The notes beneath the pieces were generated by a model that saw nothing but the letters and a program-made list of their open reading frames with translations, had not been told where the DNA came from and searched no databases. A stretch of DNA of 64,000 nucleotides from Macrolepiota albuminosa (Eukaryota > Basidiomycota > Agaricomycetes > Agaricales > Agaricaceae): the NCBI GenBank assembly GCA_027475525.1, contig JAMWFC010000092.1:558001-622000 (forward strand). Direction: 5' to 3'. How positions within the stretch are numbered: the stretch's first letter is position 1; each line of letters starts with the position of its first letter. The translations under genes were made by a program, and so were the position numbers. This document shows, one piece after another, positions 19,771 to 61,271 of the stretch.

Positions 19771-19883
19771 CGTACACAGACAATCTCATCGTTGAAATCA
19801 ATTCACGAGTACAAAACAAGTTACATATGAAGCAACCATCACTATAGTCACCTGATCTAATATTACATCACAACTCGAAACCA

Positions 19884-30039: not shown

Positions 30040-33000
30040 TCACAATTTTAGTTCCGTCAGGACTCTCCGCGCAAGCATCTGGTACTGCCATCCATCTCCA
30101 CTCGCGCGTCTGAACTGGATCCCATGCAACGGCAACCACGGCACCTAGACAAGACAAAAACACGCATCAGAAAGGGGGCGGGGAGGGTGAAAAGACACAA
30201 GAAACCACGAACCTTGACGATATTAATCTCAAACTTGACGCTAAGGGTATTATTCCCCATCGTCTCAAACACCTGTCTATCGACCTCGCCAGTGGGCAAC
30301 GGGCTCGGTGTCCTCGCATTCACAGGCGGCGGCGGCGGTGGCGACGCAGCTCCAAAATCACGCGGTATCGGCGGAAGCACCTTTGTCCTCGACGCCGTCG
30401 AACCCATGAGCTCGCTCGACGGGACCATCGCGATTCCCACCCCGTTCGCATTAGGCGAGGTGGACGGCTGCTGCTGCTGCGGATGCTGAGACACGTCCTT
30501 GGCTGCCGCAGGCAAAACATTAAAAAACGACGAAGACCCGCTCGGCGTCGGCGAAAGCGTCGTCGTCGCTCCACTCGGCCGGCCTTCCCTCTCCTTGTCC
30601 TTGTCCTTGTCCTTGTCCTTGTCTTTCCCAGCCTTGACATCACCCAACCCCACATCCCTCTTCTCCCTCTTCATGCTAAACGAGATCTTGGACGCCTTCT
30701 TCACGATCCCCGGCCGAGTCGTGTTCGACGCGCCAGACAGCGTATGTTGCAGCTGCATATTCGCATTCGCATTCGCATTCGCGCTCGCATTCGCGTTCGC
30801 ATTCGCACTCGTAGCCGCAGTCGCAGTCGCAGTCGCGCTATCGCTCGGAACGACAACAGAGGACAGATCGATAGACGGCACATGTATACACTCGAAACCG
30901 GTCCTCGTCTCGCGGTACTGCACCTGCATTCTATCAAGCACGCGCCTAATATCCGCCTTGATCACAGACGGCGGTTTCGTCGACGTCGTCGCGACACTAC
31001 ACAAAGTCAGTTCCTTCTCGCGCGCACGACGAGCCCCCCCAAAGACGCACCTAAACAGCCCCTTGAGATACACAGGCTTAAACTCCCGCTCCCCATCAGG
31101 ATCAGCATCACCATGCTCGTCCTCCTCCTTCCCTCCTCCGTGTTCATGTCCCTCCCCCTCCTCGTCCTCTTCCCGCTCGCGCTCTCTCACGTCCCCAAAC
31201 AGCCTCTCGCGCGCACTATACCCCGTCGACGGCCTCCGATGGCGTCCCACGGACCCTCCAACGCCCTCCGCACCTCCACCTCCTGCTCCACCTCCTGCTC
31301 CACCGCCACCCGCACCGCCGCCACCGCCACCGCTACCGCCAAGCAGCGCAGCGCCCGTCGAGCTCCTCCGACTATGCCCGTACCTCGCGCCGCCGCCGCC
31401 CCTCCCCGTCGGGTCAAGCACAGTCGCCGCACGACGATGCGCACTCCCCAGCGGCTGCGAAAGCGAATGCGTCACTCCCTTTTCCTTCGGCGGCGGCGGC
31501 GGCTGCATGTTCTCTTTCTCCTTCTCTTTCTCTCTCTCCTTTTCTTTGTCTGTGTCTGTGTCTTTGTCTTTTTCCTTGTCTTGGTCTTTCTCGTCGCCCT
31601 CACCAGCCTTACCCCGCTCGCCCTCCCTCTCCCGCTTACCACCCTCACTCCGCCCACTCACGACACTATCCACATCCACACTCGGCCGCGCAGCCTGCAT
31701 CCCCCGCGACTGCGAATGCGACTGAGACTGCGAATGCGACTGGGACTGGGACTGGGACTGGGACTGAGACTGCAACTGCGACGGGACCGGCGAAGGCGAA
31801 GGCGGCAACGACACCGACACCGACATACTCCCGCGCCTCCCAAGGACTGCAACTGCGACGGGACCGGCGAAGGCGAAGGCGGCAACGACACCGACACCGA
31901 CATACTCCCGCGCCTCCCAAGCGCCCCATACCCATACCTACTCCCGCCCCCAAGTATATTCCCAAACTTCCTCACTAGCGCCGTAGCGAGCGGTGCGGGC
32001 GCAGGCGCCGGCGCATGCTCCTCTCTCTCCTTCGTCTCGCCCTCTTTTTCTTTCTCTTTTTCTTTCTCTTTTTCTTTTTCTTTTTCGGTTTCGATTTCGA
32101 TTTCGCGCTCTTTCTCCTTTGCGTTTTCGTTTTCGCGCTCCCTCTCCCCCTCCCTCTCCTCATCCACCTCATCCACCTCCCGCGCGCCCCCCTTATCCCT
32201 ATCCCTATCCTTCTCCTTCTCCTTATCCCCTCTAAACTTATGCACCTCCAACCCATGCCCATGCCCATGCCCATGTCCAAACATCCCGCCCCACATCGGT
32301 CTCTGGGACATACTATGGCTCCTGCGATGCGTCGTCGCAGGCGGCGCCTGTATCGCTGCGCGCCCTGGCCCGTCCCCGCGTCCCTGTCCCTGTCCTAGCC
32401 CTAGCCCTTGCCCGAGTCCTTGCAGTCCTTGCAGTCCTTGCCCATGAATCGACGGCTGCGCGTGGATAGGCTGCACCGACGAGTGCGCCTCGGACGGCGA
32501 AGCGACGAGCACGCCTGCGTCCCGCGCTCTCGGCTGCGACGCCGCCCCGACACCAACTCCACCCACACCACCGACACCACCAAGTCCAGCACCGACGCCA
32601 ACTCCAACACCACCGACACCGACACCAACTCCAACACCACCACCGACGCCAACGCCAACGCCAGCACCAGGAAACGCAGGCGACGTCGGCGTAGACCCCG
32701 GACTCTCATACGCCCTCGCTGAGAAATGCGTCGTCGCCGGCGCGGGTAACCGCGGTACCTGCATCGAGTAGTCTGCTTTCTCTCGTTCCCTCTCTCGGTC
32801 TGCATCCTTCTCCCTCTCCCTCTCCCTCTCCTTGTGATCACGCACCAACTCCCGCTCCTCCTTCTCCTTCTCCTTCTCCTTCTCCCCAGCAGCAGCCGCA
32901 ACCGCACTGGGAGAAACACCAACACCAACACCATCCACGCCCAAACTCAACTGCGAGCTCGCAAACACACCAGGACCATACACCTTCTCCCTCTCAATCT

Positions 33001-34792
33001 TCTCCCTCGCTAAAAAATACATACTCACAAGCGGATGAAACCCACTCGTCGGGTCCGCCTCGTCCTCTACCGCCCCTCCTCCAGCCCCTCCGCCGGCACC
33101 GCCACCGCCGGCGCTCCACCCATGCACACTATGCCCGCGGCCCGAAAACGTCGAAAACAACGACGTGTGCGTCGACTGCGACGGCGGCGAGCCCGGGGAC
33201 CCTCCTCCCCCTCCCCCTGCTCCTCCCGCAGCGCCACCGCCGCCGCCGCCGCCAAAGAGCTTACGCCCATAAAACCCAAAGCCCGAGAACCGTTTCGACT
33301 TTTTCGCTTCGCGATCCTTGTCTTTATCTCTAGCAGGCGCCGCAGCGGAGGACGACGACGGGCCGGCATTGGTTGAATCAAAGGACACGGCGAGACTCGA
33401 CCGGGACACTGCGTAGGTATGCGGGTGGCCCCATCCGTTGACTGTGGGTGTGGGTGTGCTGAAGCCGTTGACGGGGAGAACACCGTGTTTCTTTTCCCAG
33501 GACCGGACGGCGCGGCGGTACGCGTCGGAGGTGAGGACGTCGCGGAGCTTGCGCTCGATCTCGTCGTCGTCGCCAAACTCGAAGCCGTCCATGCGGCGGA
33601 TGACGGCGCGGTCGATGTCGTCTGCGCGCAGGGGCTCGCGGCGCAGCATGTGTGGGTCCGGAGGCCCGTTGTGTCCGCGGACCATCCACGGGTGGGACAG
33701 CACCTCGGCGAGTGTGGCGCGGTGGGAGGGGGCGGTGACGAGCATCCGCGAGAGGATATGTTTGCAGTCTGTAGGAAAAATGAGGAATGGTGAGGTGTGA
33801 TAGGGAGAAAACTGACCGGCGCTAAGCCAGACGGGATACTCGACAAAGCCGCGCTTGATTTTTGCATGGAGGGCGGGCATGCTCTGGTCGTCAAAGGGGA
33901 CTTTGCCGCAGACGAGGACGTAGAGGACGACGCCAAAGCTCCAGACATCGACTTCGGGGCCGACGTAGAACTTTGCGTTGAGGAGTTCGGGGGCGGCAAA
34001 GTAGAGGGAGCCGCAGAAAGTGGAGAGACGGGCGGCGGGGTCGTAGAGGTTGGAGAGGCCAAAGTCGATTATTTTGATATTACCAGATTGGGAAATGAGG
34101 ATGTTTTCGATTTTGAGGTCTGTGGAGTGCGTGAGTGGAGAGTGGAGGAGACAAAAGGGACGGACCGCGGTGGACGACGTTGTTGCGGTGGCAGTACTCG
34201 AGGGCGCTTCCGATCTGGCGGGCAAACTTGCGGGCGACGCGTTCGCGGAGACGGCCGTGTGCGATGATGTAGTCGAGCATCTGGCCGCCGTTGACGTACT
34301 CGAAGAGCATGTAGTAGTGGTGCTGATGGACGATCATCTGGCGCATGCCGCAGATGTACGGATGGTGCAGCAGCATCGACAGCGCCGCCTCGCGCAGCGT
34401 GCGGATCTCCTTCGAGGCATCCTTGGACGCCTGCTTGGCCGCAGACTCGTTGGTGGGGGGCGGCCCGGGGTGTGTCCGCGGCAGGATCTTGACTGCGAGC
34501 TTGCAACAACCGTCAGCGACTGCACCAGCCACAAACCAAACGTCACAACCTTTTCTGCAGTCACACTGTGCGTCGCCAGCTTCACCTTGCCCATGCTGCC
34601 CGCCCCCAGTGTCTTGCTCAGCATGTAGTCGCCCAGCATCCGGTTCGTGCGGTGGCGCGACCCCGACCCCGTCCGTCTGCTCGGCGTGCCCTCCCGCGAA
34701 GCCTCGGGCGTCCCCATCCCCGTCTGCCCAGACGCAGGCAGCGACATCGGCCGCGGCTTGTGTGAGGCGGCCCGGCTCTCTGTCGAGCTCAT
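30040..34792 (-). CDS. KIN1: KIN1/PAR-1 (MARK)-type Ser/Thr kinase with C-terminal KA1 domain
   Basis: Exons (minus order): 34550-34792, 34166-34499, 33817-34119, 31906-33768, 31051-31846, 30213-30996, 30040-30144. The kinase domain spans about residues 55-330: [10 protein letters not shown] loop, [16 protein letters not shown] (split by an intron after HR), DFGLSNLYD, and the T-loop [36 protein letters not shown] then shows the KIN1 subfamily. A very long Ser/Gly/Glu-rich linker follows ([19 protein letters not shown] runs). The C-terminus has [20 protein letters not shown] then LHGIQFRR and TELKL, a complete KA1 membrane-binding domain. Such kinases act in polarity and exocytosis. Oddity: an exact 77-bp tandem duplication (31768-31921) breaks the frame. 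Frame is restored either by removing one copy or by splicing a 59-nt GT-AG segment (31847-31905), as modelled here. With either, the protein is about 1,470 aa. Confidence 0.9.
31768..31921. repeat. Exact 77-bp tandem duplication inside KIN1-type gene
   Basis: 31768-31844 equals 31845-31921 base for base, and flanking bases differ. Length is not a multiple of three. Confidence 0.95.
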
Positions 34793-34863
34793 CGTGGCCC
34801 AGTTGTTGCCCACAAATGCCAGCGCCTGACAAGCCAAATCAGCTTATGTCAGCTTACTAAATA

Positions 34864-36854
34864 CTACATGTTCTCATAAAACTCTCTCGACAGCCCTGCC
34901 TTGGCTCTGTCCTCTACATTGAACGGGCCCTTGAGCGCGCCCCTCCACCCACGCCGCACCTCTTCCCTAAACGCCGCCACTGCATCCTCGCCCCCGCACA
35001 CCCACGTGAACCACCGGTGTCCCGACGTGACGTGCGTCACTTCGTCCGCGTGGATAATCTCCATCACTCGCACGCTCTCCATGTCTCCTGCCCTGCGGAA
35101 CCGCTCGATCGTCCCCGGGTTCACATCCAGCCCCCGCGCCTCGTGCACCAGGTGGATAATCGCCAGCCGCGCCCGCAGCGAATGCCCCGTCACCGTCGCC
35201 GACTCCCACAGCGCCGCATGCACCGGCATCGTCCCATACGGCGTCGTCGGCGATATCTCCGCCAGTCTAGACGTCAATAGCGTACTAATCACTGTCAGTA
35301 GTTGTCAACAACATAGAAGCCCTCTTACAAGTGTTTCGACTCGTCCAGCGCCATTTTCGTAAAATCTGAGAAAAACGCAAGAGGGATATCCGGATGCGCA
35401 GGTCCGAACCGCGCCATGATATCCCATCTAAGCAAAAAATAAGCCCTGTAATTCGTACGAAAAAAAACCACCAACGCAAGATCAATCCTATCAAAAAGTC
35501 AACACCTTGCAAGACAGAACCTCGTCAGAAACTCACGCCCACTGCTCGATATTCGCCAACGCATGCAACATGACCGCTCGACTCTTCCTACTCCTCATCT
35601 TCGCCGGATCCATTGTATTCCTCACAACACGCTCTTCACGGGTCGGCACGTCCGGCGGCCTAGGCGCATTCGGCGATCGATGCCCGATCGACACTAACTC
35701 GCCTCTACGAAACCGACTCACCGCCTCCCGCGTGCGTTGTACCTTTACCACCTTCGCATTAACCCCAACCCACGACGAGACAGGAGGGGAGACGGGCGCA
35801 CCTTTAAAATAGGATTAGGCGTATTCAGAATCAACACCGCCCAATGCATCAACGTAGTCGGCGGATCCACGATTGGCACAACCGGCTCCATCTCCATCTC
35901 TCGCTCATCGACTATCGCTATACCCGACGACGACGACGACGCGGTGATAGGCAGCAAAGGCGCCGTGGGTCGCGCAGGAGGGGGGTCCGCGAACTCTGCG
36001 GCGAAGCATCAGCGGAACGCAGGCACGGAACGCGGGGGACGCGGGGAACGCACCTTCGGAAACGGGACGAAGCTCGACGAGCGTCCACCCCGTGCCACCC
36101 GTCGGCGTCTCGACCCACACCCAATCCACCGTACCCTCTCCCTGCCCCTGCCCTTGCTCCTCCCCACTCTCGCTGTCGCGAGCGCTCTCACGCCTCACTT
36201 CGACCTCGTACGTACACGCTCTCAACCCCGTCTCGCTCTTCCCAGTCTTCAAATCAAAATCATACCTTCCACCCATCGCGGTCGTCATCGTCATCGATTC
36301 GTTAAGATCAAATTCAAATTCGAATTCATATCAGAATCGAGAATCGAGAATCGAGAATCGAGGGAACGGGAATGGAGGGAGTAAGATCAACAAAAACCCT
36401 ATCCATCCAAAAATCAACCCCCAACACAAAAACCAACAAGGACTCACTTATGCCACGGACATACAAGGACTCGACTCGACTCGCATTCTTCGATGTCCGC
36501 ATGGGAGAGGTCGGCGCCGAGATGTGGGCACGCGGATTCCATCACGTATATCTGCGTGTCTTTGTCTTTGTCTTTCTCTGTCTCTGTCTCTGTTTCTGTC
36601 TCTGTCTCCTTGCCGTGCTCCTTGTCGGTGTCCTTGGGCTCCTTGCTGTTGTCCTTGTGGTTGTCCTTGCAGTTCTCCTTGCCGATCTCCTCAGGCTCAT
36701 TGCCGGGCTCCTTGCGGTCCACCTCCACCTCCACCTCCACAGCAGGGACAGCACCAGGGACAGGAGCAGGGACAGGGACAGGGACACACCCCACAGGCGC
36801 AAGTCGAAAGAGTATAAGCGAGCGATACACACCCTCGCGAGACCGCAGCGTCAT
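34864..36854 (-). CDS. Rieske [2Fe-2S] - DUF455 (ferritin-like) fusion protein, 516 aa
   Basis: Exons (minus order): 36448-36854, 36054-36265, 35802-35995, 35537-35742, 35476-35487, 35329-35427, 34864-35284, all in frame. The Rieske ligands are CPHLGADLSH and, after an insert-free stretch, VCPWHKYDFDL (C-x-H ... C-x2-H). Before them, between the first strands, lies a low-complexity insert (VPVPAPVPG, EVEVEVD, KETETETETETEKDKDKD). The DUF455 part begins WAVLILNTPNPILK and continues through SRAVMLHALANIEQWAIDLA, WDIMARFGPAHPD, DESKHFTLL and a second helix pair with HLVHEARGLDVNPG and IIHADEVTHV. These Glu/His residues fit a ferritin-like di-metal bundle. Exon 5 is just 12 nt and encodes part of the helix junction A-IDLA. 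The role is unknown. The start at 36854 (MTLRSREGVYRSL) is chosen by domain fit; an upstream exon cannot be excluded. Confidence 0.85.
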
Positions 36855-36899
36855 GAAAAAGCGTGAATGGCTCAACACGTCGTTCAATGGGGATATCCT

Positions 36900-36957
36900 G
36901 AATGAACCCCAGCCCCAATCGACACCGAAAACGAAAACGAAAATGAAAATGAAAACA

Positions 36958-36988
<31 letters not shown>

Positions 36989-37040
36989 AAACGACACCGA
37001 AAACGAAACCAAAAAACACCAACACCAAAAACAAAAAGAA
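36900..37040 (-). repeat. Hexanucleotide-like microsatellite upstream of Rieske-DUF455
   Basis: Runs of CGACAC / GAAAACGA on the plus strand (GTGTCG / TCGTTTTC on the minus), just upstream of the chosen start. Confidence 0.8.
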
Positions 37041-37619
37041 AAACAAAAAGAAAACAGTGAGCCAGGTACGAGATTACAGGCGTGGTGCGTACTTGATTTT
37101 CTCCATCGTGATCGTGCGTGTGGGATCCAAAGTGAAGACGAAGATGAAGATGAAGGACGCCGAGTTTCTCAATGCAGAGCACGTGTGTAGATAGCCGATG
37201 ATTCACATGTGACCTTAGGAATTACCCACCCAATCCTTGAACCAGCTGACAAGTGAATGACGATCGCTAATCACCGAATAGGGTTCGTAATACATACTGA
37301 TAACGACACCAAGCTTTGACAGCCACACATGTACGAAGTAGTAGATTTTTTTTTGTTTCCGTGTTCATTAGGTACCTCACCTCAACTTGAAGGACAAGGG
37401 CAAGAAAGTGTTGTCTGCAAGAAGGTTGTGGTTTTTGTCCATAGATGTTTATGTGTGTACTAAACCCCGGATTTTCCTTGTGAACGTGGTCCACATGGTA
37501 GCTAATAAGTAGCTTTCGCATTCTTCTCCTCTATCCATCGTCACATATCGCTTCTCCACACTCTATCTCTTCACAAATATCGCACCTGGCCACACCTGTG
37601 GCCCTTCCATTGTTACATA
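37041..37619. other. Intergenic, no gene supported
   Basis: Transition from host genes to the repeat island. CpG becomes rare from about 37.6 kb. Confidence 0.5.
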
Positions 37620-37975
37620 CACTGGGTGCAGAGAATGATATTCTTTGCCAAAACAATGTAAAAATACAGTAAAAATAATGCAATTAATTTCAGAATTTTA
37701 TTTAAATATTTCTGTCAAAACTATAAAAAAAAATATTGTAACCAGATTTTGAATTGCACTTGGTCTAATGCTCTCCAATGCATTGGAGAAGATTACATTG
37801 GTCATTCTTAAGCCTAAGAACCAGAGCAAGCCTCCTGTGGCAATTTGTTTTCTTATTCTTTCAAGTTCAGTTAAAATATTTTTTTTATAATTTTAACAGA
37901 AATATTCAAATAAAATTCTGAAATCAATTGCATTATTTTTACTGTGGTTTTGCAAAAGAATGTTGTAGAGAAAAA
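37620..37975. mobile_element. Foldback MITE, copy 1 (right end displaced)
   Basis: Begins cACTGGGTGCAGagaatgat and continues with the same internal text as the copies at 54.9-55.7 kb. Its right arm runs to about 37975; the matching outer end (ttctgcacccagtaa) appears only at about 38249-38266, so about 270 bp has been inserted or rearranged. Confidence 0.75.
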
Positions 37976-38266
37976 CAGTAAAAATAACTACAGATGCATA
38001 AGTACATGCTTGCAAAGTGTAAGTAATGTGGCTTACTCTTAGCAACTCTACACAGAAGTGAGATGGCTGAGGGTAACCAGTTTTATTGGCTGAAGTATTT
38101 ATACTGTCAAAAATAAGGTTTTGGTAAAGATTAGTAAATAGAGCAATAAAAACACAAGGCTCATGAGTGGCAACATGCCCAAATAAGTAAAAAAAAGAAA
38201 ATGGTACTTTTGTGTACATAGTTAGGATTCATCTCACCCAACAAATGTCATTTTCTGCACCCAGTA

Positions 38267-40084
38267 ATAGGGAGCATGGTAGAGTAGTGGTCTCCACCAT
38301 GCATCTGCCATTGCATCCTGGCAGACACCAACAGAAGGTAAGAGTTTGCACCATGAACATGTGTTTAAACCCTCAAGGTTGCAAAAATTCCACTTCCCTT
38401 TTAGCATATAAATTCTCCACTACCAATGATCTGACCCTTTCTTTTGACCATGGATCTTCTTGGCTCATCACTGCCAATCTTTACTCACTGGCATGTATTC
38501 TGCCCAATGCCATCATGTACATTAAATCAAGACAATGGTATCCTGCCTCTGTATGCAATTGGCTCCTGCAACAGGAACCTTGTCCACCCTTGGTTATCTG
38601 GAAAACCCCAGCTCTGAATCACTGCACCATGGCTACACACTGGAGTAAGTTTCAGCCAGGATAGAAGAAAGATTGAGGAGACATTGTGTGACAAGAAAAT
38701 CATGCTAGATCTGATTCCTGCATACAAATTGTTCAACAAACTCTAACCATTCCAACTACTGGCACTGGCAAGGAATTCACACATCATGGGAGGTCACAAC
38801 ATTCTGTGTCTGCACAGCATAAAGGAATATCACTAGTTATGAATTACCTCCAGCCTAGAATCTATACCCTCTGATATATCTTTGATCATACTGCAATGTG
38901 AACCTGCTACTATATATGCCACCACAATCTCTGCAAGGAAAGTTCCAATATCAAACTTAGATTACATTGATACACTACATGCTACACCCTGTACAAGGTA
39001 CTGCACACTAGCCTGTTGGCCTGCCTCTTAGCTCTGTATTGTAGCTTGCTGGCATTAAATCAATTCATTCATTTATTCATTCCATTGTTATATACTTTAT
39101 CTTCTCATGCATGTCATACCTAGACACACTTGTGGCTCTTCCATTGTTGCTAGAATGCATACATATACAAGGACTACATACCAACACCTCCAGTCAATCA
39201 TATACTAGACTAGCAGTAAGTCATACATCCTTACACATCTTACTACAGACACTGATGTAGTTGCTGGAAAGATCTGTAAACTTATGCTGCTGTCAGGTAA
39301 TATCCTTAGTCAATCATATACTGAACTAGAGATCTGTAGACTTATGCTTCTATCAGGTTAATAATAGAGTTTCAGTTCTAACATAGGTCCTCATAGATAC
39401 ATACTTCTTTCATTATGGTATCAGGTATATATGTTACTCATACACATTGTGTGTGCCAAGTTACTTAGCAGACCTTGAATGGGGCCATTTGTTAATGACT
39501 GACTATGGTCACCTAACTTTTTTTCTAGCAGCAGTTCCAGAAATAGCAGGTATGTAGCACATATTTCTCAAAAATCTTGTCTGCACCTAGATGCATAAAT
39601 AGCAGCCACATATAAAGTAATAAATTTTTTGTATTCACCAGTAACATTTAAATTGAGACATACTGGTGTTAGTTGAAGCTACAGTTTAAACTGATCAAAC
39701 AAGGCATAGTTGGTCTCCTCCAAGTTTGAAAACTGTATAAAGCCTGTGAATGGAATACTATTGCATTAAAGGCTTTGCACCTCATCTCTCAAGACTCAAA
39801 CATCTTAAAAAAAGTCGAGTTGAAAGAAACTATTCCTAGAAATTGGAAATAGTTCTCTGGAACAAAGTGGTTATTGGTTTCATCCATGTTAGGTACTCTC
39901 TTAAAGAGTACATGGGCACTTGTACCAAATCCAGTGTTTTCAATGATCTTGTATTGTAGTTGTTTCTGACAGAATTCAATCATGGCTGTACTGGTAAAAT
40001 AATCCTATCATATAAGTAATGTTGCCTGAAAAGGCCAATGAGGTGATGTCCCAACACAGCATGCAAGTTCCTACTTGCTCAATC
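38267..40084. repeat. AT-rich, CpG-poor unclassified repeat material
   Basis: No gene recognised. Two partly repeated lines around 39190-39370 share AGTCAATCATATACT and GATCTGTArACTTATGC. Otherwise no structure. Confidence 0.4.
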
Positions 40085-40330
40085 TGTAAGGGTGACCTCT
40101 GGAGGCTATAGCTCAGTCACACAGCTGGCAGAGGGAGAGCCAAAGTATATTAGAGTATATACTAACAATATCATAATAACTACTCACCTGGCAGAGGAAG
40201 ACCCAAAGAAAACAAGTCTAGGGATTTTCTATGCCAAGTTGGATACTTCTGGGGCCTCTGAAGCATGAGAAACAACTATACAGGACAACAGAATCTTAAA
40301 AACTCAAAAATTGCCTAAACAAACAAGTTG
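40085..40330 (+). mobile_element. LTR-2 family, truncated copy
   Basis: Starts TGTAAGGGTGACCTCTGGAG and follows the LTR-2 consensus for about 245 bp (CAGTCACACAGCTGGCAGAG, GTATATACTAACAATATCAT) to aacaaacaagt, then diverges. Confidence 0.8.
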
Positions 40331-40639
40331 TAACGAAGTTATGGATTTAGTGAGAGCTTAAAGTTTATACTACACAGAATCAGACCAGTCTGGTCTATTG
40401 ACAATGTAGTATGAATACAAATTAAGCTGCTTAATAAGCAGCACATAGCTAACTATTTATAATTATGTACATAATATTATATTATAATAAATATAATATA
40501 ATATTCAACTACTATACTAAGTAAAAGCTATGTGGCCAACACCACATAGCGAACTACATTACATACTCCTCAATCAGACCAAACTATGGCTTTGAAGCAC
40601 CATGATGGTCAGGCCATTGGTGTCAGAGACAGGGATGAT

Positions 40640-46590: not shown

Positions 46591-46615
46591 TGATAGGATT
46601 TCACACAGGCTAGAT

Positions 46616-47541: not shown

Positions 47542-49309
47542 GTCAGGTTCCGCTGAATCGGGGGCTTTCCGGGAAAGCGACGCCCTTACGATGCGGACTT
47601 GACCTACGAATACTTGGGTGTCTGGAACTCCGAGGCTAGGGCTCCGGGGTTCAAGACGGGGACAGGGGTAATCCCGGGATAGGGGACTAGAGTCCGGAGG
47701 TTTTGGGTTGGAGGTAACTGGGGTTAGAGGGGGTCGAGTCGTGAACCGGAGGTTCTAAGACGAGACCAAGTTAGTAACTTAAGAGTCGCGAAGTGCGTAC
47801 CAAAGCTTAGAGCACGCGAATACTAAGGCGTGCCAGTCGAAGCGTACCAAACAAGGCGTACCAGTCAAGCAAGGGGCACGCAATATCCAAAGTAACAGTT
47901 ATGCAATATCAAGACTACCGAATACAACAGGGAGCTACACTATAAGTACTACGGGGCCGGGTCTCGGGGTTCCGGGATGTCTGGGATGGGTTCCGGGGGT
48001 TATTGAGTAGCGGCAGGGGCTGTATACCGGGATCGCGCGTGTGGGGTGCGCGATCAATTGGCGCGGATGGAGCCGTGATGCGTGATGCGTGATGGCCGGC
48101 CGAGTCACGTGATCTGATCGTTGATCGGGGCTGGTGACGGCTGATGGCGGTGATAGGACCCTATACAGGTTAGGCGCATCAACGGCAGGCTCGGCACTGG
48201 CTCCGGAAACCTTGCCGCACTCGTTCCGAACTTAGCGCACACGTTCTACCCATTTTAAGCCATTCCCGACGGCCGCGCACGGCAAGAAGCAGATCCGATC
48301 AATGATAGCGCCGACGGCAGCAAGAATGACAACTGACAGATGGCATCAGTCACTGACGACAGCGCTTAGCGAGAAGCTTGATGATCTATCAAAAACTGAC
48401 GGACAGCTTGGCGTTTGACCTTGGCGTCTGACACCACTTACCGTCTCAATTTGGCGCCCAACGTTGCTTAGGTGTTCTGACAGACAGAAGGGTGATGGAT
48501 TGATGATTTAGCACCGCGATCTGCCGCCTGGTGGCGCCAAGGGTCTTGAATGGACGGTAGGGATCTGAAACCGTTGGAGCTACCCCTATGAAATTTTCCA
48601 GTTTACCGCACTTTGGCGATGGTTAGTCACTGGCAACGGTGAACTTATTGTAGTATAAAAGTACTTACCGACTTGTACATTGGACAAGAGACGAATAGAC
48701 CAGAGTTTCCCCCTTCCTCAGTCTCCCTTACGCTCAAGAGCTCATTTACGCTACGGTCGGCAACGTCAAAACTCATCGGCAGTTGCAGACGCTTGCCAAC
48801 ACTCGACATACTCGTGCCTTGCAACTACGGCAGGCATTATCGACGCTTAGATTTCGCTAAGCATATCGTGCTCTTGCCGCTCACGTTGCCGTGTTCACTT
48901 ACCGCATTTTCCTTAGGCGCTTTACCCTAGCGCTTAACACTTGCCGACACCCGTTACCGACTTTTTCCTCTTTTTCACAGACGCGTTCTCTGGGACCTGC
49001 CCGGGACTCCTCACCACACTTTTAGCGCGCCCAACGCACACTCTTGGTACGGTAACACTTCGTTCTCTGGGACCTGCCCGGGACTCCTCACCACACTTTT
49101 AGCGCGCCCAACGCACACTCTTGGTACGGTAACACTTAAGTTACATTTGTTGCTGACCAAACTTTGGGCGTCATCAGCGGTCCTTGATGCGCGTGATGGC
49201 GGTGTCGGCGGTCGTGATGGCGGGGCGTGTCCTGTGGGGTCGGAGGGAGGGTCCCGGAGGGTGTTCCAGGGGTGTCCCGGGGTGGGCCCGGAGGGGAGGG
49301 GTCGTGACA
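47542..49309 (+). mobile_element. Young, CpG-rich solo LTR (LTR-1), TSD TTAAC
   Basis: 1768 bp starting TGTCAGGTTCCGC and ending GGGTCGTGACA (TGTCA/TGACA ends). The 5 bp TTAAC stands directly before (47537-47541) and after (49310-49314). CpG is abundant, unlike in all neighbouring repeats. It contains one exact 77-bp tandem duplication (48984-49137). No internal gag-pol is attached, so it is a solo LTR made by LTR-LTR recombination. Confidence 0.92.
48984..49137. repeat. Exact 77-bp tandem duplication in young LTR-1
   Basis: 48984-49060 equals 49061-49137; flanking bases differ. Confidence 0.95.
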
Positions 49310-50650: not shown

Positions 50651-51166
50651 AAAATTGGAGCAGTTTTTTGAGCCAATATACAATGGCTAGATAATCATGG
50701 ATCCTTGAAGGTCAAAGAACTACTAGATTTAAACATGACTAATATATTTATTTACAAAAACTTTGCCCAAAAGCACAACCTACTAATTCAAAAATGACTA
50801 TATATAGTACCAAAAAATGTGTCTATAACAGAGTTTGTACTTTTGAAAATGAAATACAAAAACTATACAGAGAAGATTTATTTCTATGTTGCAAATATAG
50901 GCAGATCTGATATAATAATTGAGCACAATTAGCTGAAAAAAATATAATTTTGAAATAAACTGGAAAATAGGCAAAATAACTTTCAACTAGTATTCAAGTT
51001 TCTGTAGCAAAATAAAGATTGATAGGCTGAAAAAAAAAAAAAGTCAAAATAAAACAGCATATGAAGAAAAAACAGAAATTGACAAAAAAAAAGAAATTGT
51101 GAGCAAGTAAAGTATAAAAAAAAAACAAAAGAGGTAAAAAAAAATTAGATGGCTGAAAAAAAAAGC

Positions 51167-51761
51167 TGTAAGAGCAACCTCTAGAAGCTGTAGCTCAGTC
51201 ACACAGCTAGCAGAGGGAGATCCAAAGTGTATTAGAGTATATATTGACAATATCATAATAACTACTCACCTGGCAAAGGAAGATCCAAAGAAAACAAGTC
51301 TAAGGATTTCCTATGCCAGGTTGGATACTTCTGGGGCTTCTAAAGCATGGAAAACAACTATACAGTACAATAAAACCTTAAAAACTCAAAAATTGCCTAA
51401 ACAAACAACTGTGCAAATAAAGCAGGAAAACCACCTAAACTTTGAAAGTCAGAAAGGCAAACTCTGGCTTATATAAGTGGTCTGAAAGCAGTACTGAAGG
51501 ACTCACACTTGTCTGAATAATAGCTAAAGAACCAGAGCACCTCAAAGGCTGAGAATAGTACTAACAAATAGTGTTGAGAGAATAGAAACAGCAAAAATAG
51601 CTAAAGAACCAGAGCACCTCAAAGGCTGAGAATAGTACTAACAAATAGTGTTGAGAGAATAGAAACAGCAAAATGAGAGAATGATAGAAAAAATAAGAAA
51701 ACAAATGAAAGGAGAGTAAAGGAATAGAAAGTAAAAAAAAAAAATAAGAAGTCTCCTGACA
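51167..51761 (+). mobile_element. Solo LTR of LTR-2 family with internal 77-bp duplication
   Basis: TGTAAGAGCAACCTCTAGAA ... GTCTCCTGACA, 595 bp, which is about 518 bp after removing one copy of the exact 77-bp tandem duplication at 51519-51672. Flanks AAAGC and AGAGC agree at 4 of 5 bases. Confidence 0.85.
51519..51672. repeat. Exact 77-bp tandem duplication in an LTR-2 copy
   Basis: 51519-51595 equals 51596-51672, with one extra chance match beyond. Removing it restores the family length. Confidence 0.95.
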
Positions 51762-53190
51762 AGAGCATCAATACATACAGTTTTTTAACTTTGATATTAA
51801 AATATTTAACAATCTCTTCTTTGAAAAGAAATGTATGTTAGTGATAGCAACATAAAAAATAAATACAACTTCAAATATATTGCAATGAATAGCACAAAAA
51901 GAGAATAAACAAGAATAAAAAATAATTATAAAAAAATAATTTCCAAATAATACTATGAATTACTCAAATTAGTGTTTGAAAAAGAAAGATTTAGCAACTT
52001 ATCTTTATAAAAATCATGGAACTACACAATTGACTTAATGCCTGAAGTAATGCCAAATAAAGCTATCAAAGTTTATCTGATTAGTCTTTAAAAGCAAAAA
52101 AACATGATGTATTTCTTAAAGAAAACCTAAAAAATGGGTATATATATAAGTCAAAATCACTATAGAAATCAGAATTTAAAAAAAATTAGAGACTCAGGCC
52201 AGTTCAAGGTTATTAAAAGCTAAATATGATAACAGTAAAAAATGCCTGCCCACTACTATCAATTTCTGAAATTATTGTAAAGTTATAACATGTGTATATA
52301 TTTTTTAAAATCAATAGAAAATGATGTTTCAATAACATCTGAATCAAGAAGAGTAACAAACATAAAACAGTGTTTTTAACAAATCAGAGATTATTTGAGC
52401 CAATTGTAATGTTTTTTAGACCTGAAACTCACTAGCAACTTTTCAAACAATAATGAATAATCTATTTAAGGACCTAATACTCTGTAGTATTATAATGATA
52501 TATATAAATAATATCTTAATGTATATAAAAACTCTTGCTAAGCATTAAAAAATAGTTCTAGAAAAAAACAAACTATATCTAAAATCAGAAAAATATGAAT
52601 TTAAAAAGCCAAAAATAAAATATTTCAGAAGAATCATTAAAGAAAGAAAGGTAGAAATAGATCTGGCCAAATTAGCTACAATCAATAAATAGCCAGCACT
52701 CAAAACAGTTAAATCTATTTGTGAATTCCATGAACCTCGTGAATTCTATGAATCTATGTCACATACTATGACATCAAGCCACTAGCTACAGTATCATTGT
52801 TCAATGTTCAATGTTTGACAAAGACATATTCTAAACTATTTCCAGCTAAAAGCAGAGATTGAAACAATTTTGATAATCATGCCCTTGCTTTCAGTATTCC
52901 TTACAGGCTTAGTTTGACATGCATGATTGCACTTTGTAACAGTAGCAGCATATTGCTCTCTGCCACCCTGTAGCCATCTTTTTTTTACACCTATCAGATA
53001 CTGGCTGCAGGAGTGCCCTTTCAGATTCAGAATTAGTGGCTTTTGCAGCAAAGTACCTTGAAGTTTCTTGTCTTGAGAGAAAATAACACAATAATAGGAT
53101 TCTATGTTGTTGTTAAATGAGAAAAACTACTTAATTATCATTGTAAACTTCAGTTATGGCAATAAGTTATATATTTGATCTGCAACATAC
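51762..53190. repeat. AT-rich, CpG-poor sequence, nothing recognised
   Basis: Lacks open frames of interest and recognisable repeat ends. Confidence 0.4.
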
Positions 53191-53709
53191 TATCAGGGGA
53201 CTCTTTATTTCTTCCTTCTTTCACTCCCTATTCCTTCACTCTTCTTTTATTTATTTCTTTATTTCTTCTATCATTTTCTCATTTTGCTATTTCTATTCTT
53301 TCAACACTACCTGTTAATACTATTCTCAGCCTTTGAGGTGCTCTGGTTCTTTAGCTATTATTCAGACAAGTATGGGCCCTTTAGCACTACTTCTAGATGC
53401 TTATATAAGCTGGAGTTTGCCTTTCTGACTTCCAAAGTTCAGAGTTTTCCTGCCTTGTTTGCATAGTTGTTTATTTAGGCAATTTTTGAGTTTTTAAGAT
53501 TTTGTTGTACTGTACAGTTGTTTTCCATGCTTCAGAGGCCCAATGAAGTGTCCAACCTGGCATAGGAAATTTTCAGACTTATTCTCTTTGGATCTCTCTC
53601 TGCCAGGTAAGTAGTTATTATAATATTGTCTATATACACTCTAATACACTTTGGATCTCCCTCTGCCAGCTGTGTGACTGAGCCACAGCCTCCAGATGTT
53701 GTTCTTGTA
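53191..53709 (-). mobile_element. Solo LTR of LTR-2 family, decayed
   Basis: TATCAGGGGACTCTTTATTT ... CCAGATGTTGTTCTTGTA, about 519 bp. ATAC on the left and ATAC one base past the right end may be the target duplication. The terminal CpG-containing segment seen in other copies is lost. Confidence 0.75.
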
Positions 53710-53929
53710 TATACATCATATACTGTTGAGTTGAACAAATGTTTTATATACTTATTTATTTTGTTATATTACAATATGACATGGGTTTATAAAGTTCATT
53801 GAGATTCATGGAGTTTACAAATAGTTATAGCCACCTAGAACAATCAAAGAGACATGATTGTTATTTGGATTTTGTAACTTCTATTAAAAATTTATTAAAA
53901 GTTTTGCATCAATTGCACAGCCTGTAAAA

Positions 53930-54060
53930 GCAATCTCCAGAAGTTATAACTAATTACACAACTAGCAGAGAAGAATCCAAAGTTTATTAGATAGGTTACT
54001 ATACAGCAAGGAAAATAACTAATTATCTGACAGAGAAAAATCCAAAGAAAACAAGTCATC
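53930..54060 (+). mobile_element. LTR-2 family, decayed 5' fragment
   Basis: TGTAAAAGCAATCTCCAGAA ... CAGAGAAAAATCCAAAGAAA follows the first about 130 bp of LTR-2 with many substitutions. Confidence 0.65.
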
Positions 54061-54587
54061 AATTTCCACCAAAATAATCCAGTAGCTACTCAACAAATTT
54101 TGTTAACAGACTACAACTTTCTCATGTTTATGCCTATTTCTAAAGCCTTGATTAAAATTTCTTTCAGCTTGCCCAGAATTCTCATATTCAAAGAAAAGTG
54201 ATGTCATAATCAGATATTTCCAATATATTTACTTACTTATTTATTTTTATATTTTACATATTGTTTTATATATTCTTCCCCGTTTTACTCTATTCTATCT
54301 TCCAATTTTATGAGTGCTATATTCTCTTTTATTTTCTTTTAGTTCTTCTCTGGTTCTCCTATAAATTATAACTTTCAAATCCATTTAGTTATCACAAGGA
54401 CAGTTTCTATTCACACATGATTATTAGAAAGTAAAATATAAAAACCCAATGTATTTAATAGATAGCTCTAACTTGGTTGTTGCTATTGGTTTTCTGATCA
54501 TTTTTTAAGTTAAATTCTGACAGTACACCCTTTCTCCTGGATAATTCTATTTGTGAATCCCTGCAAGTTGTGAACCCAAATAGAATT

Positions 54588-54882
54588 ATCCAAATATTTC
54601 TGTCAAAACTATAGAAAAAATATCTTAACTGAATTTAAAAGAATAAAGAAACAAATTGCCACAGGAGGCTTGCTCTGGTCTTTAAGCTCAAGAATAACCA
54701 GTATAGTCTTTTCCAATGCATTTGAAAGCATCAGACCAAGAACCATTAAAAGTCTAATTACAATATTTTTTCTATAGTTTTCACAGAAATATTCAGATTA
54801 AATTTTGAAATTAATTAGATGATTTATACTATGTTTTTACCTTGTTTTGCCAAAGAACATTGTTCTCTGCATCCAATGTATA
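54588..54882. mobile_element. Foldback MITE, copy 2, left end missing
   Basis: Internal and right-arm sequence of the MITE (ATATTTCTGTCAAAACTATA ... GAACATTGTTCTCTGCATCC). The outer left terminus is absent. Confidence 0.7.
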
Positions 54883-54905
54883 TATATGGCTAGTAGATCT
54901 TCAAA

Positions 54906-55335
54906 CACTGGGTGCAGGGAATGATATTCTTTGACAAAACAATGTAAAAACATGGTAAAAATAATCCAATTAATTTTAGAATTTTATTTGAATATTTCTG
55001 TAAAAACTAAAGAAAAAATATTGTAACCGGTCTGATTCTCTCAAATGCATTGGAGAGGACCATTTCAGTCATCCCTGAATCTAAGAAATAGAGCAAGCAT
55101 CCTGTGGCAATTTGTTCTGTAATTCTTTTGAATTCAGTTAAGATATTTTTTCTATAATTTTGCCAGAAATATTCAAATAAAATTCTGAAATTAATTGGAT
55201 TATTTTTACTTCAGTTAAGATATTTTTTCTATAATTTTGCCAGAAATATTCAAATAAAATTCTGAAATTAATTGGATTATTTTTACAATGTTTTTACATT
55301 GTTTTGCCAAGAAATATCATTCCCTGCACCCAGTG
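54906..55335. mobile_element. Foldback MITE, copy 3, complete
   Basis: CACTGGGTGCAGGGAATGAT at the left is mirrored by ATCATTCCCTGCACCCAGTG at the right. The arms stay complementary for over 100 bp (GGCAAAACAATGTAAAAACA / TGTTTTTACATTGTTTTGCC). Too short to encode protein. It holds an exact 77-bp tandem duplication (55133-55286). Confidence 0.9.
55133..55286. repeat. Exact 77-bp tandem duplication in MITE copy 3
   Basis: 55133-55209 equals 55210-55286; flanking bases differ. Without it the MITE is about 353 bp, close to copy 4. Confidence 0.95.
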
Positions 55336-55352
55336 AAATGCTTTCTTTCAAT

Positions 55353-55723
55353 CACTGGATGCAGGGAATGATGTTCTTTGGCAAAACAATATAAAAATAC
55401 TGTAAAAATAATCCAATTGATTTCAAAATTTTATTTGAATATTTCTGTCAAAACCATAGAAAAAATATTGTAACCAAACTTGCAATAGTACTTAGTCTAA
55501 TGCTCTCAAATGCATTGGAGAGAACTACATTGGTCATTTTTGAACCTAAAAACCAAAGCAAGCCTCCTGTGACAATTTATTCTCTTATTCTTTTGAGTTC
55601 AGTTAACATATTTTTTCTATAATTTTGACAGAAATATTCAAATAAAATTCTGAAATTAATTGGATTATTTTTACCTTGTTTTTACTTTGTTTTGCCAAAG
55701 AACATCATTTTCTGCACCCAGTG
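55353..55723. mobile_element. Foldback MITE, copy 4, complete
   Basis: CACTGGATGCAGGGAATGAT ... ATTTTCTGCACCCAGTG, 371 bp, same long inverted arms as copy 3, only 17 bp away. It marks the right border of the AT-rich island. Confidence 0.88.
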
Positions 55724-56102
55724 AATGACAAATGTCAGATAAGGACAGCCATGGGAGCCATGATGTATCAATTCAATGTACGGATGGTCCTTGGATTTGG
55801 GCTATCTTGTATACTTATCGTGATGTTTTGTAACCATTCGGGGTTCTGGGGTGTCATATTTGGTGTTTCAGCTCACGAAATCGGAGGTGTGTGGCTAAAA
55901 TCGTTCTCTCGCACTTTCGAAGTGACGCCCATCTTCTATGTGGATGGACAGCCCAGGTCCACTGGTCAAGGAAGCATCACAATGATTGACAATTAAAAGT
56001 CCATCCATATTGCCGTTCTGCGTTTCAATCTGAATCGCCATGGATTGTATAAGTATGAAGTGCAAGGTGATTAGGAGAATCATTTCCACAAGCACAATTG
56101 AG

Positions 56103-57085
56103 ATGTTGTGTCTGAAAGTGACGTCTTTGGCTCTGTTGCTCGTACTTCTGCAGGTCTTCTCATCTGCGGCAAGTAGGATTCGGCAACCCGCTCAGCCCTT
56201 GGAAGGGTGTGATGAGTTTCACGGCAGCGTTATTAAAGCTCTTCTCATTTTTAGGGTCATTGGTCCATATTCTGATGCTGGCCTCGCTGAACGGCAATTC
56301 TCGTCATGCCCTTTTGGTACGCATGCATGTTCGGGTGAGTCTTCTGGAGTCGAAACCAAACGCCTTCTAAATGTGTTTCTTCACTTCTTACAGCCACAAC
56401 ATGCTGCCCAGACGGCTTCGATTGCGTTGGAACTGAAGAATGTTGTCCGAGTGGTGAAACCTGTGTTGGTAACAGTGGCGGATGTGCACCAGGCGGTTTC
56501 AGGTGCCCAGGAGGCTTCTGCTGTTGTGGGTGTTTGACTGCATACTAAGTTGGCCTTCATCTGAACAGTCACTCTACAGTCATAGGTACTGACTGTGGTC
56601 AAGAGACCTGTCTAGAACAGACCACTAGTACAAGCACAAGAACTACCACAAGAACGACCATACATCTAACCACTGAGACGCCCAAAATGACCACGACACC
56701 CGAAACAACTCATACGTTGCCCCGAACAACTGCTACGATTATGACTACAACTCTTTCCAATACTGGTCCTTCGGTTAAATCCATTAGCACGAAAGCAGCA
56801 TCTTCTGGGAGGACATCATCGGACAATCCCACTGCGACTTCGATTGCGTCAGTACCAACAACATCGAGCCCTCCAACAAACACAATACCAGTTCCGCTCG
56901 GGGTAGCTACAACAAACTCGTAAGTTTACCCCTTGTCTACATTTTATACTAATTAATCATTAGTTATATGACTTAGCGTTACTCTGAATGGAGGCGCCAG
57001 AGGTCATGCAATGACTTCATTGGCAGCTTTAACATATGCTATCTTCATCACTGTTGCTTTTGCAACCAATTTGATTGGCCTCTGA
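56103..57085 (+). CDS. GPI-anchored, Cys-rich, Ser/Thr-rich cell-surface protein
   Basis: Exons 56103-56206, 56255-56334, 56394-56529, 56569-56919, 56977-57085 (259 aa). The signal peptide is MLCLKVTSLALLLVLLQVFSSA. A dense Cys region follows (SSCPFGTHACS, TTCCPDGFDCVGTEECCPSG, CVGNSGGCAPGG, RCPGGFCC), then a mucin-like Thr/Ser stretch of about 110 residues with many TTT-type runs. The C-terminus has small residues NGGARG and a hydrophobic tail SLAALTYAIFITVAFATNLI, typical of a GPI signal. The gene probably makes a wall or plasma-membrane protein; knot-like Cys modules like this occur in fungal surface proteins. Two points are open: the 39-nt third intron could instead be a 57-nt one (56523-56579), and the first intron (48 nt) is read-through in frame. 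Confidence 0.78.
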
Positions 57086-57569
57086 CACACATCTGTAAAT
57101 GAATAAGTATGCTTGCCTTACAAGACGTGATATCAATATAAAAGGCCTCGAAGGTTATGCTGATGGTGTGAGTCTTTCCTGCTTGGATGGATACTTTTTA
57201 GTACATACAAAACACCATATTGAATGATCATTCCGAGGTGAGTATCGCAATCGATGGCAACCGAGTTGTCATCAACCTTGGTAGCCTCAAAACTTTCCGA
57301 CACGCGGCTTAACCATAAGCATATGATCAGAGGGGCCGGATCCTTATGATCCCAGGAGTCTCCACAAAGAGAAAAATCAGGACACCAGATCTTATGAGAG
57401 AATCGCATTGTCTGATAAGCTTAGATTTTGGGATCTAGTTCCGGGGACGCCTGCACTGCTTTAAGGAAATAATCACATAAGGAACCATCTTGTGGGATGG
57501 AAGCGTATGTCAGACTTGGGGCACCACGTATTACCCCAGGACTTTGTGAATATGGTGATGTGATAATTG
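57086..57569. other. Intergenic, one doubtful minus-strand frame
   Basis: A 91-codon minus frame (57133-57408) contains SFEATKVDDNSVAIDCDTHL, which looks protein-like, but no family or splice partner is visible. It may be a remnant or exon of an unseen gene. Confidence 0.35.
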
Positions 57570-59645
57570 ATGGTCATTCTACTCACGTGGGAATCGTATT
57601 TACTTTCCTCGGACTTTCCCCTTTCAGCATCACATATCCCTGGGCAAGGCCACGACGACAGTGATTCTGATGTCTTGAGGTTAGACGACTGTTTCTCAAT
57701 GGTTTCAGACTACGTATCCTATCATAAGAAACTTCGTGGGTGGTTAAGTTACGCATTTGCCAGGTGAATGACAATGAGCTTCGGCCCAACTGTTTTTTTT
57801 ACCCTTCAACATTCAACAGCGAAGTTTTCGTCATAGTCTCGTTGACGTTATTTCTACCAATCTGCCTTGAGCAATATGCAAGAGACAATGGATTTCTTCT
57901 TCCTGATCGTACAGACCGGTGTTCCGCAGTCGCCAAGCTAGGCGCAGGGACAACGCGATGTGTGGTCAAAATAGGCTGGGTTTGGATCGATAGTGCCAGC
58001 TTTAGGTCAGTGTATCCACTTTGCTAACTATATCCGAAGCTTGACTTGGCTGTATAGCTTGTATACTTACTCCTTATCTGTGGCTTTGCAAGCCCTGACG
58101 GTGATTTCAATGGGTGGAATTGCTGATCACCGTACGCCTTACCTTATACATCTATATCAATCACTCCAAGTTAATACGGCCTCCGTTCAACAGCTCCTCA
58201 TAGAAAGCGCTTGCTTTTATCATTCGCTCTGTTTGGCGCAATACCTGCGACTATCTTTCTGATTCTACCTTCGACCTCGTTTGCTTGGATGTTTGTTGCG
58301 CCGCTGGCCATCTGTGCAAATGTTGGCTTTGGTGCTTCTGTTGTAGCTATGAATGCATATTTACCCACACTAGCACGGGAATCTCCCGAGGTTCGTCAAA
58401 TCCTTGCAGAAATCGACGACGCGCAGGAGGCACATCCTCCAGCTATGCCAGACGAGAACTCCGATCATTCGGATTCACCTCTTATTACTCACAACACCAC
58501 AAGTGAAATTGATGCCCTTCAGGCTAAATACGAGAATGAATTGTCCAGAGCTACCTCTCGTATCTCGTCCTTCGGGATTGCCCTTGGATACGGGGCAGGA
58601 ATATTCCTTCTCATAATCGCCCTTATCCCCGTGACACTCCTTCACGGGTCTACGTTTGCTCTCAGACTTGCTATCGGGCTTAGTGGCGTTTGGTGGGCCG
58701 TTTTTACGATACCTGCTGCAATCTGGTTGCCGGGAGGTGAAGGAGTTGAGCTGTCTGACACGCCGCCCGGTCAGTGGAGCACAAAGAGGGAGATTGGAGC
58801 CGCATGGAGGCGTCTTGGTAACATGCTCCGGTGGACAGAGATCAAGAAGTTGAGGAACACTTTCAAGTATCTTGCTGCGTGGTTCTTACTATCAGATGGC
58901 GAGTCAATTAGTTCTACTATTTCTCTTTGGTTTGACTCATACTATCGGCCCGCCAGGCTTCACTACAATTACATCCACCGCCATTCTATTCGGCAAAACT
59001 TCATTGAATATGCAGCCTTCTGCACTTATTCTCGTAGGCGTACTGACACCAACATCCGGAATTCTTGGTTCCCTTGCCTGGCCATATATACAACGCCGAT
59101 ACAGATGGTCGAATCTAAAAGTCATCGTCATACTCGTACTCATGGCGTCAGTCATTCCTGCTTATGGATGTCTTGGCTTTTTGAGCGTCTTCCAAGGGGG
59201 GTATACCCGATTCGGCGGGCTAACAACGCAAGGCGAAATGTTCGCTCTCGCTGTCTACTTCGGTGAGTCATTGTTCTCTGTCCTTTTCGTCACCACGGAT
59301 GTCATTGTCATAGGTTCTGTCTATGGCGCGTTCCAGGGTTATGCACGAGCCTTTTATGCCGAGCTTCTACCCCCTGGCGAAGAAGCCCGGTGGTACGGCT
59401 TATTCTCCATTACGGATAAAGTACGTTTATTTTTACTTACTTGGAATGAAACGTTCATCTGTCCGTAGTCGAGTTCCTTCATTGGACCACTCATCGTTGG
59501 TTTAATTGCAGACACAACGGGTAATATCCGTTATGCCTTCTTCTTCCTCGTTATCATGGTTTGGTTGGCCGTGCCCATCCTGACCAGTGTTGACGTAGAG
59601 CGAGGTCGAAAAGACGCTAGAGACTATCGATATAGTGCAGCATAA
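57570..59645 (+). CDS. ATG22: ATG22-like vacuolar effluxer (MFS fold), 582 aa
   Basis: Exons 57570-57763, 57820-58005, 58058-58131, 58194-58898, 58957-59262, 59314-59420, 59469-59645, all in frame. An acidic, soluble N-terminus leads to LRGWLSYAFASEVFVIVSLT, then LFLPICLEQYARDNGF and WVWIDSASFSLYTYSLSVAL. It continues MGGIADH-P-HRKRLLLSFAL, FGFGASVVAMNAYLP-like text, a cytosolic loop rich in Glu/Asp/Ser, ISSFGIALGYGAGIF, SDGFTTITSTAILFGKT, and VYGAFQGYARAFYAELLPPG with EEARWYGLFSITDKSSSFIG. Order and motifs are those of ATG22, which exports amino acids from the vacuole after autophagy. Intron 4 starts GC instead of GT. The exact start codon is uncertain because the N-terminus is poorly conserved. 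Confidence 0.9.
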
Positions 59646-61271
59646 ACGGCATTTTTAACGATGTTCTTCCATGCATACAGATGAATCGTCATCGAAAGCA
59701 TGCTCGGCCGATTCGTGCTGTCGCTGCAGAAGGACTCTGCTTTGCTGCGTACGGTAGTTAAGAGACTTTTCATTTGTGTCCAATGCTAGATGTATGACAT
59801 CCTCCAGCGCTTGCCAAGAATGTTTGCTTCTGCTTAAATAATAGACATTCATCTATATGTGTGCTGGCAGTTACTTTTTCATAAAAAAAATTCTCTTTAG
59901 GTAGAATATTTGTGCCATGCCCATCTCGTGCATCATACTATTCAAAACCACAAACTGCCGTTCGTTCATTGGTCAAGAACAGAAGAACCAGAGCTCAACA
60001 AGTTATTTGTTTGACAAGATTTACCTTGATTTTCAGCCTACTGTTGACACATAAGTCTTTTGTACTTCTTGCTTCTGCACTTTCACCGGTCCTACATGGC
60101 GCCTATCGTGTAGTTCGAACCCTGTGGTCTTGTCTTGAGTGAGGTAACTGAGGGTGAATCTGGACTATCAGCTCATGACTTCCGATGTCTCTATATACCA
60201 ATTTTTCGTTAGCCAGCATATTCGACTTCAGGAACTTTTTTCTCGCTTAAACTGCACTTATTTCGAAACCAGGTCTTTCCCCTGTATCCTGTGTATCAAT
60301 ATCGCTATGGACTCATCAACCGCTCCCAGCAGAACCGAAGAACCTGCCATCTACCTATGAGACGACGATAGAAGCTCGTCTTCCCTTCTTTCCTCGATCA
60401 ATCAGTATCTCATCCATTGATTTCTGTCTCGTCATCAACCTTTAGAAATTGAAGATCTCCTTATTTGTCGGGTTGGAGAGTCCCTCTCCTCAAGAGCATC
60501 TATCTCGTAAATGTGTTCAACAAACGAGGTTTGCCGTATGTTCTCTTCCTCAATAATTAGCTTTCACTGGTGGTTAATGATCCCTGAAAGAGACTTTCAG
60601 TTCATGTTCTGCTTTGAGCAGTCTAGTGTCGCTATAGAAGGACTATGATTTACCTTACACTCACTTAAAGGTAGAGGGATAAACTTTGCGACTGTCCAAG
60701 ATCTTCATTAATTGCTCTCTAGCCTCCCTCAAAGTTCTCTGTAATCAAGGGTTGAATTCTTCTCCTTCGTTTAGCGCTTCACCTCGCAATTTTCAGCACT
60801 TGACCCAGAATTTCTTTATAGACATGTCAGAACCAGTTGTCGTGGTAGACGATGAAACAGGAAAGTTCAGGGTCACATTGAAGTCGCCCTGGGAGCTGGT
60901 TCTTTTTTTTTAGTTGTCGTGGTAGACGATGAAACAGGAAAGTTCAGGGTCACATTGAAGTCGCCCTGGGAGCTGGTTCTTTTTTTTTCTAAATTAAAGG
61001 CTTCAATCCCACGAGGTGACTCAAGAGGCAGCCTCAGAATGACGTACTCGTGACTGTCAATGCAGTTAGTAACCATCCTATACAACATCTCATTGACTAT
61101 GAGAAGGTACAAATCATTCTGATGTGACGATAGATTAATCTATCGAGACAACTGGCGAGACATGTAGGAGCGCCGAAACTCTGTGATTGGCGCTGGGACG
61201 GCTTCGCAAAAACCTAAACAATCTAAATTGGCAACTCTACAATTCCCTCCGTGACTCGTCCCTCGAACGAT
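59646..61271. other. Intergenic; short frames only
   Basis: No gene is supported. A minus frame at 59655-59852 (MNVYYLSRSKHSWQALEDVI start) and a plus frame at 60823-60913 (MSEPVVVVDDETGKFRVTLK start) look protein-like but are short. The second contains the exact 77-bp duplication. Confidence 0.4.
60835..60988. repeat. Exact 77-bp tandem duplication in intergenic DNA
   Basis: 60835-60911 equals 60912-60988, including a terminal run of nine T; flanking bases differ. Confidence 0.95.

Follow-up and report, generated by a model that had tools for sequence, protein, structure and literature searches.

Why should five unrelated sequences within one short stretch of a fungal genome each be duplicated head to tail with exactly the same unit length? 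The window analysed here is a stretch of 64,000 nucleotides (C43:558001-622000, where C43 is the contig that holds it) from an assembly of 100,137,612 bases in 129 contigs. The first-pass annotation had reported five perfect head-to-tail duplications in it, unlike in sequence but all with a unit of 77 bp. We therefore asked whether these duplications belong to the genome or to its assembly.

Five exact 77-bp tandem duplications in the window

We compared each base of the window with the base p positions further on, for p from 10 to 3000. This period scan recovered all five duplications at the places reported (Table 1), and Tandem Repeats Finder returned the identical five arrays, each of 2.0-2.1 copies at period 77. 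No two of the five units have the same sequence, and all have period 77, as had been claimed. The third site is likewise an exact 77-bp tandem, but its end had been set one base short. Periods of up to 18 bp in simple sequence aside, just one other period in the window gave a match run that equalled or exceeded its unit and reached 20 bases, that of a 51-bp minisatellite at 25980. There is no N anywhere in the window, hence no gap letter at any of the five joins.

Table 1. Positions of the 77-bp tandem duplications in the window and of the reading frames that meet at the first of them
Feature	Position in window	Copies	Strand	Detected by
77-bp exact tandem duplication in Kin1-like kinase coding exon	31768-31921	31768-31844, 31845-31921		period scan, Tandem Repeats Finder
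77-bp exact tandem duplication in LTR-like dispersed repeat	48984-49137	48984-49060, 49061-49137		period scan
77-bp exact tandem duplication, match run 78, in dispersed repeat	51519-51673			period scan
77-bp exact tandem duplication in AT-rich repeat with inverted copies	55133-55286	55133-55209, 55210-55286		period scan
77-bp exact tandem duplication, unit ending in T9 ('intergenic' in the first-pass annotation)	60835-60988	60835-60911, 60912-60988		period scan
Upstream reading frame of Kin1-like kinase, part of catalytic domain; runs off frame inside duplication	31658-34225		minus	
Downstream reading frame of the same Kin1-like kinase gene, C-terminal part; opens inside duplication	30057-31826		minus	

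The settings of the five sites were partly as first labelled. The assignment of the first site to a kinase exon was right, a Pfam match and alignments with homologues identifying a Kin1-like kinase. The site at 48984, labelled an LTR, fits a dispersed repeat, for which the genome gave at least 40 additional match rows, two of which overlap. The sites labelled LTR-2 (51519) and MITE (55133) are repeated sequences that have inverted copies within the window. Repeats and low-complexity sequence, the setting first proposed, are not the only one: the kinase unit begins where two apparent haplotypes differ by a base.

Period 77 dominates exact tandems in a wider sample

Exact tandems with units of 20-1000 bp were counted in 304 kb of the assembly, consisting of C43:458001-622000 (which includes the window), 50 kb from each of C114 and C6, and eight stretches of 5 kb drawn from six contigs. 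The sampled contigs were chosen from a list of matches to the LTR-like repeat, so that each holds such a match, and the stretches were placed at round coordinates. Loci obtained in the LTR search were excluded from this count because the query itself carried a duplication. The first-pass annotation had reasoned that an assembly artefact should give the unit-length histogram a sharp spike at 77, and this spike was found in the 304 kb, which are a sample and not the whole genome. Twenty-nine tandems had period 77, whereas the remaining periods of 40-1000 bp yielded only two between them, one of 51 bp and one of 53 bp; eight more had periods of 34-39 bp. The excess at period 77 is far beyond chance.

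Outside the window, the sample contained 24 period-77 tandems in 240 kb. One of these, a sixth duplication at C43:557866-558019, straddles the window start. Their spread was uneven: the C43 stretch held 15 (five in the window), the 50 kb of C114 one and the 50 kb of C6 three, while two 5-kb stretches of C110 held three and four and half of the eight 5-kb stretches none. The loci from the LTR search were likewise rich in 77-bp tandems.

The matches are mostly exact and run past 77 only at chance level

With a one-in-four chance of agreement for each base beyond a 77-base overlap, runs of 77, 78, 79 and 80 matching bases are expected 16.3, 8.2, 3.1 and 1.0 times, and we observed them 18, 8, 2 and 1 times, respectively. 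The matches thus extend past 77 only to the chance level. We also collected all adjacent pairs of at least 70% identity in the 304 kb. At period 77 there were 29 exact and four imperfect pairs, whereas the 60 other periods of 50-110 bp together gave two exact and 50 imperfect pairs. These counts indicate that natural tandem repeats in this genome are mostly imperfect and that those at 77 are mostly exact.

Of the four imperfect period-77 pairs, three had 76, 74 and 76 of 77 bases identical and one lay at 70-74% identity. The LTR-search loci yielded four near pairs, three with a single mismatch and one that was an echo of an exact pair. The pairs with one to three mismatches (three in the 304 kb and three in the LTR-search loci) mean that later polishing must be assumed if all of these duplications began as exact copies. 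The pair at C43:505513 has three C/T differences, two of them at CpG, which could be the result of polishing by reads from other repeat copies.

Successive duplications gave 36 distances when the unbiased and LTR-search loci were taken together. The minimum was 147, and none was below k + 1 = 78; the test is a weak one, all distances being well above 78. An exact overlap between the two sides of a 100-N gap was looked for in one fetched locus, and none was seen there.

Eight of ten searched units occur elsewhere without that duplication

Ten of the 29 units, including all five of the window, were searched exactly against the whole genome; counts of repeats from this search are lower bounds. 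Eight were found elsewhere, with at least 14 further places listed, and none of these 14 was a tandem of that unit; the other two had no further exact copy in the assembly. The proportion of eight in ten was not used as evidence by itself, since random 77-mers may also be repeated in this genome. At two of the 14 places (on C36 and C6) a different 77-bp tandem overlapped the unit, and the stretches fetched around the other 12 contained no 77-bp tandem, even when up to 30 bases were allowed to be missing.

Each unit of the window had such a copy. The kinase unit is present once at C78:402935, in an allele that differs at the base directly left of the unit. The 48984 unit occurs once each at C6:2161619, C53:437438 and C78:1251389, and the base directly to its right differs in all three; the C6 copy carries its own 77-bp tandem in another register, overlapping the unit. 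The 51519 unit is found once, at C36:472910, with no adjacent variant in that copy and with a different 77-bp tandem that overlaps the start of the unit. A single copy of the 55133 unit lies at C107:875794 on the minus strand, differing at the base directly left, and a single copy of the 60835 unit lies at C78:422238, where the nearest haplotype difference is at the 29th base to the left.

C78 accounts for four of the 14 places, and three of these (392717, 402935 and 422238) are collinear with C43 (557866, 589768 and 618835). At these three places C78 is apparently the other haplotype of C43, and the assembly seems to hold both haplotypes. The C78 loci that correspond to the kinase and 60835 sites (3,077 bases each) aligned piecewise with the window, at 92.6-99.4% identity, and neither contained a 77-bp tandem. 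The distance from the second of the collinear anchors (C43:589768) to the third (C43:618835) exceeds its counterpart on C78 by about 9.8 kb. We also observed that the identity of the window to the C78 haplotype shifts at the joins, from 97.9% to 92.6% at 31844 and from 94.9% to 99.4% at 60911, as if pieces of different phase or collapse state had been joined.

The frame of a kinase gene is open on C78 and appears broken in the window

In the Kin1-like kinase gene, the upstream and downstream frames (Table 1) overlap in the duplication, and an identical 19-residue peptide occurs in each, one per copy. The upstream frame matched the Pfam protein kinase domain over profile positions 114-263, and a Pfam search with the downstream frame gave no match. 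Both frames align along Kin1-type homologues, of which three are shown (from Termitomyces sp. Mi166, Lyophyllum shimeji and Hypsizygus marmoreus), and in these the region lies in one frame. Among the best 120 of 3378 matches in a protein search, the top two were Termitomyces proteins, 77% and 81% identical across the part that was searched. All three genera, Termitomyces, Lyophyllum and Hypsizygus, are members of the Lyophyllaceae.

The C78 allele of the gene has a single copy of the unit and is stop-free over all 1025 codons fetched. In the matching region of the window no frame stays stop-free for so long: the two longest stretches, of 578 and 558 codons, lie in different frames and meet in the duplication. 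The frame shifts there because 77 leaves a remainder of 2 when divided by 3. One assembled allele of the kinase gene is therefore open, and the other looks interrupted at the duplication.

Unit ends coincide with variants more often than chance

Since a piece of a de Bruijn graph ends where copies diverge, the word common to two pieces should directly abut a variant. We found this at five of the eight sites for which another copy was available: C43:458904 (left side, in four of five copies), C114:5047940 (right), the kinase site (left), 48984 (right, in all three copies) and 55133 (left). The last is uninformative in this test, its common block being only 78 bases long. At the seven informative sites, four units abutted a variant and three did not, compared with 0.50 expected if a 77-base unit were placed at random in the common block (P = 0.0004). 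The seven probabilities behind this value were entered by hand from the alignments, those of the two multi-copy sites being 3 of 40 and 3 of 15. As the idea arose after the sites of the window had been looked at, we also considered the sites examined afterwards (C43:458904, C43:557866 and C114:5047940) separately; two of the three abutted a variant, with 0.19 expected (P = 0.010).

No variant was seen beside the unit at three of the eight sites (C43:557866, 51519 and 60835). A strict graph model therefore needs a branch there from unassembled alleles or from read errors. Length errors are common at runs such as T9, and at the T9 end of the 60835 unit length errors in the reads could make such a branch. 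Left of the unit at C43:557866, a stretch of exactly 77 bases is the same in both haplotypes, an observation that we counted against the graph-overlap explanation set out below, which does not account for it.

Origin of the duplications

It is very probable that the five duplications are assembly artefacts and not a biological feature, with 77-base overlaps of a de Bruijn graph placed end to end and left unmerged. This is what had first been proposed, namely that contigs overlapping by k = 77 were joined without collapsing the overlap, and the proposal is supported by the constant length and exactness of the duplications, the spike at 77, the copies without duplication, the kinase frame that is broken in the window and intact on C78, the chance-level edges of the matches and the excess of unit ends at variants. 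On this reading, the short-read assembly used a de Bruijn graph whose final k was 77. Neighbouring pieces of that graph would have exactly one 77-base word in common per join, and splits would fall at points of divergence between two genomic copies or between two haplotypes. Neighbouring pieces would then, in a later step, have been placed end to end, with no gap letters and with the common word kept, leaving it present twice, and the few mismatched pairs would stem from polishing after that. We infer the value of k, the program (SPAdes or one with the same overlap rule) and the step that left the overlap in. Edges in SPAdes overlap by exactly k, and 77 is its usual top k for 150-base reads; SPAdes is the likely, if unproven, assembler.

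A different artefact would be a step with a fixed 77-bp overlap of its own, such as a gap filler or scaffolder that extends sequence by 77-base words. Such a step could explain why not every unit abuts a visible variant, why two units are unique in the assembly and why the five joins have no remaining gap letters. However, an excess of unit ends at variant bases is a prediction of graph-edge ends, and we regard this second kind of artefact as very unlikely. Ordinary minisatellites or transposon-internal repeats that share one period by chance would fit the location of some sites in dispersed repeats, but the five units differ, each is present exactly twice, and the other exact periods of 40-1000 bp total only two in 304 kb; with the period histograms leading us to reject chance minisatellites, the probability left to this explanation is negligible. 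A single inherited duplication borne by the LTR-like repeat was also rejected: seven other copies of that repeat had 77-bp tandems at shifted starts or registers, and two fetched copies (on C53 and C78) had none, an observation that speaks against minisatellites as well.

A real process might also make tandem duplications of a fixed 77 bp, for instance if nicks staggered by a set distance were filled in and joined, and the duplications are indeed exact, frequent and constant in length. Against such a process stand the single copies on the apparent other haplotype and the near absence of decayed 77-bp pairs, compared with many at other periods. It would also have shifted the frame of a conserved kinase gene whose C78 allele is open, and the ends of the matches are those expected from chance extension and lie at variants more often than chance predicts. 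To our knowledge, no enzyme has a 77-bp duplication footprint. We consider this mechanism extremely improbable. It is just as hard to credit that a fungus tandem-copies exactly 77 bases at thousands of places, so recently that nearly all copies are identical and single-copy alleles remain. The uncollapsed k = 77 overlap is our preferred reading.

Relation to known assembly artefacts and consequences

Several known systems resemble uncollapsed k = 77 overlaps in part. In Bionano hybrid scaffolding, overlapping neighbour contigs are both written out and the overlap appears twice (BiSCoT, PMC7649008; also PMC8389630), so that, as we propose here, a stretch common to neighbouring contigs is present in two copies. 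In the accounts given there, however, the copies are separated by 13 N and the overlaps span several kilobases (up to 237 kb in a human example), whereas our window has no 13-N mark and every unit measures 77. Overlapping contig ends are left by SPAdes and removed by Unicycler (PMC5481147); this is a known source of common sequence at neighbouring contig ends, and the passages that describe it give no overlap length. Homotype false duplications were described by Ko et al. (2022, PMC9516828) as under-collapsed sequence that read errors produce, and one of their characteristics is the presence of gaps between the copies. They resemble the present case in being false extra copies that can be misread as gene changes, but the relevant passages of that paper do not tie them to one fixed length. 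The RegScaf paper (PMC9326850) goes no further than to mention the merging of overlapping contigs. For Termitomyces cryptogamus, SPAdes was used for one homokaryon and CANU for the main assembly (PMC10021994), with no tie to the present genome established. Our literature search, in which most papers were judged from listing-level information, brought up nothing that we recognised as describing a tandem artefact of fixed k.

If the sampled rate (24 in 240 kb outside the window) holds, the assembly would contain on the order of 10,000 false 77-bp duplications, or about 0.7-0.8 Mb, a figure extrapolated from a small and uneven sample. As 77 is not a multiple of 3, each duplication in a coding exon breaks the frame of a real gene; the Kin1-like kinase is an example. 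Gene models and pseudogene counts for this genome would be affected, and so would surveys of its tandem repeats and the dating of its transposons. A histogram of exact tandem unit lengths provides a quick quality check that can be applied to any assembly.

Two further features of the window were noted. A 28-bp minisatellite of about 13 copies lies at 19878-20245, with more copies near 25401. An uninterrupted frame of 2563 codons at 12079-19770 on the minus strand contains DUF6570, Helitron_like_N and PIF1 helicase domains and is a Helitron-type transposon protein.
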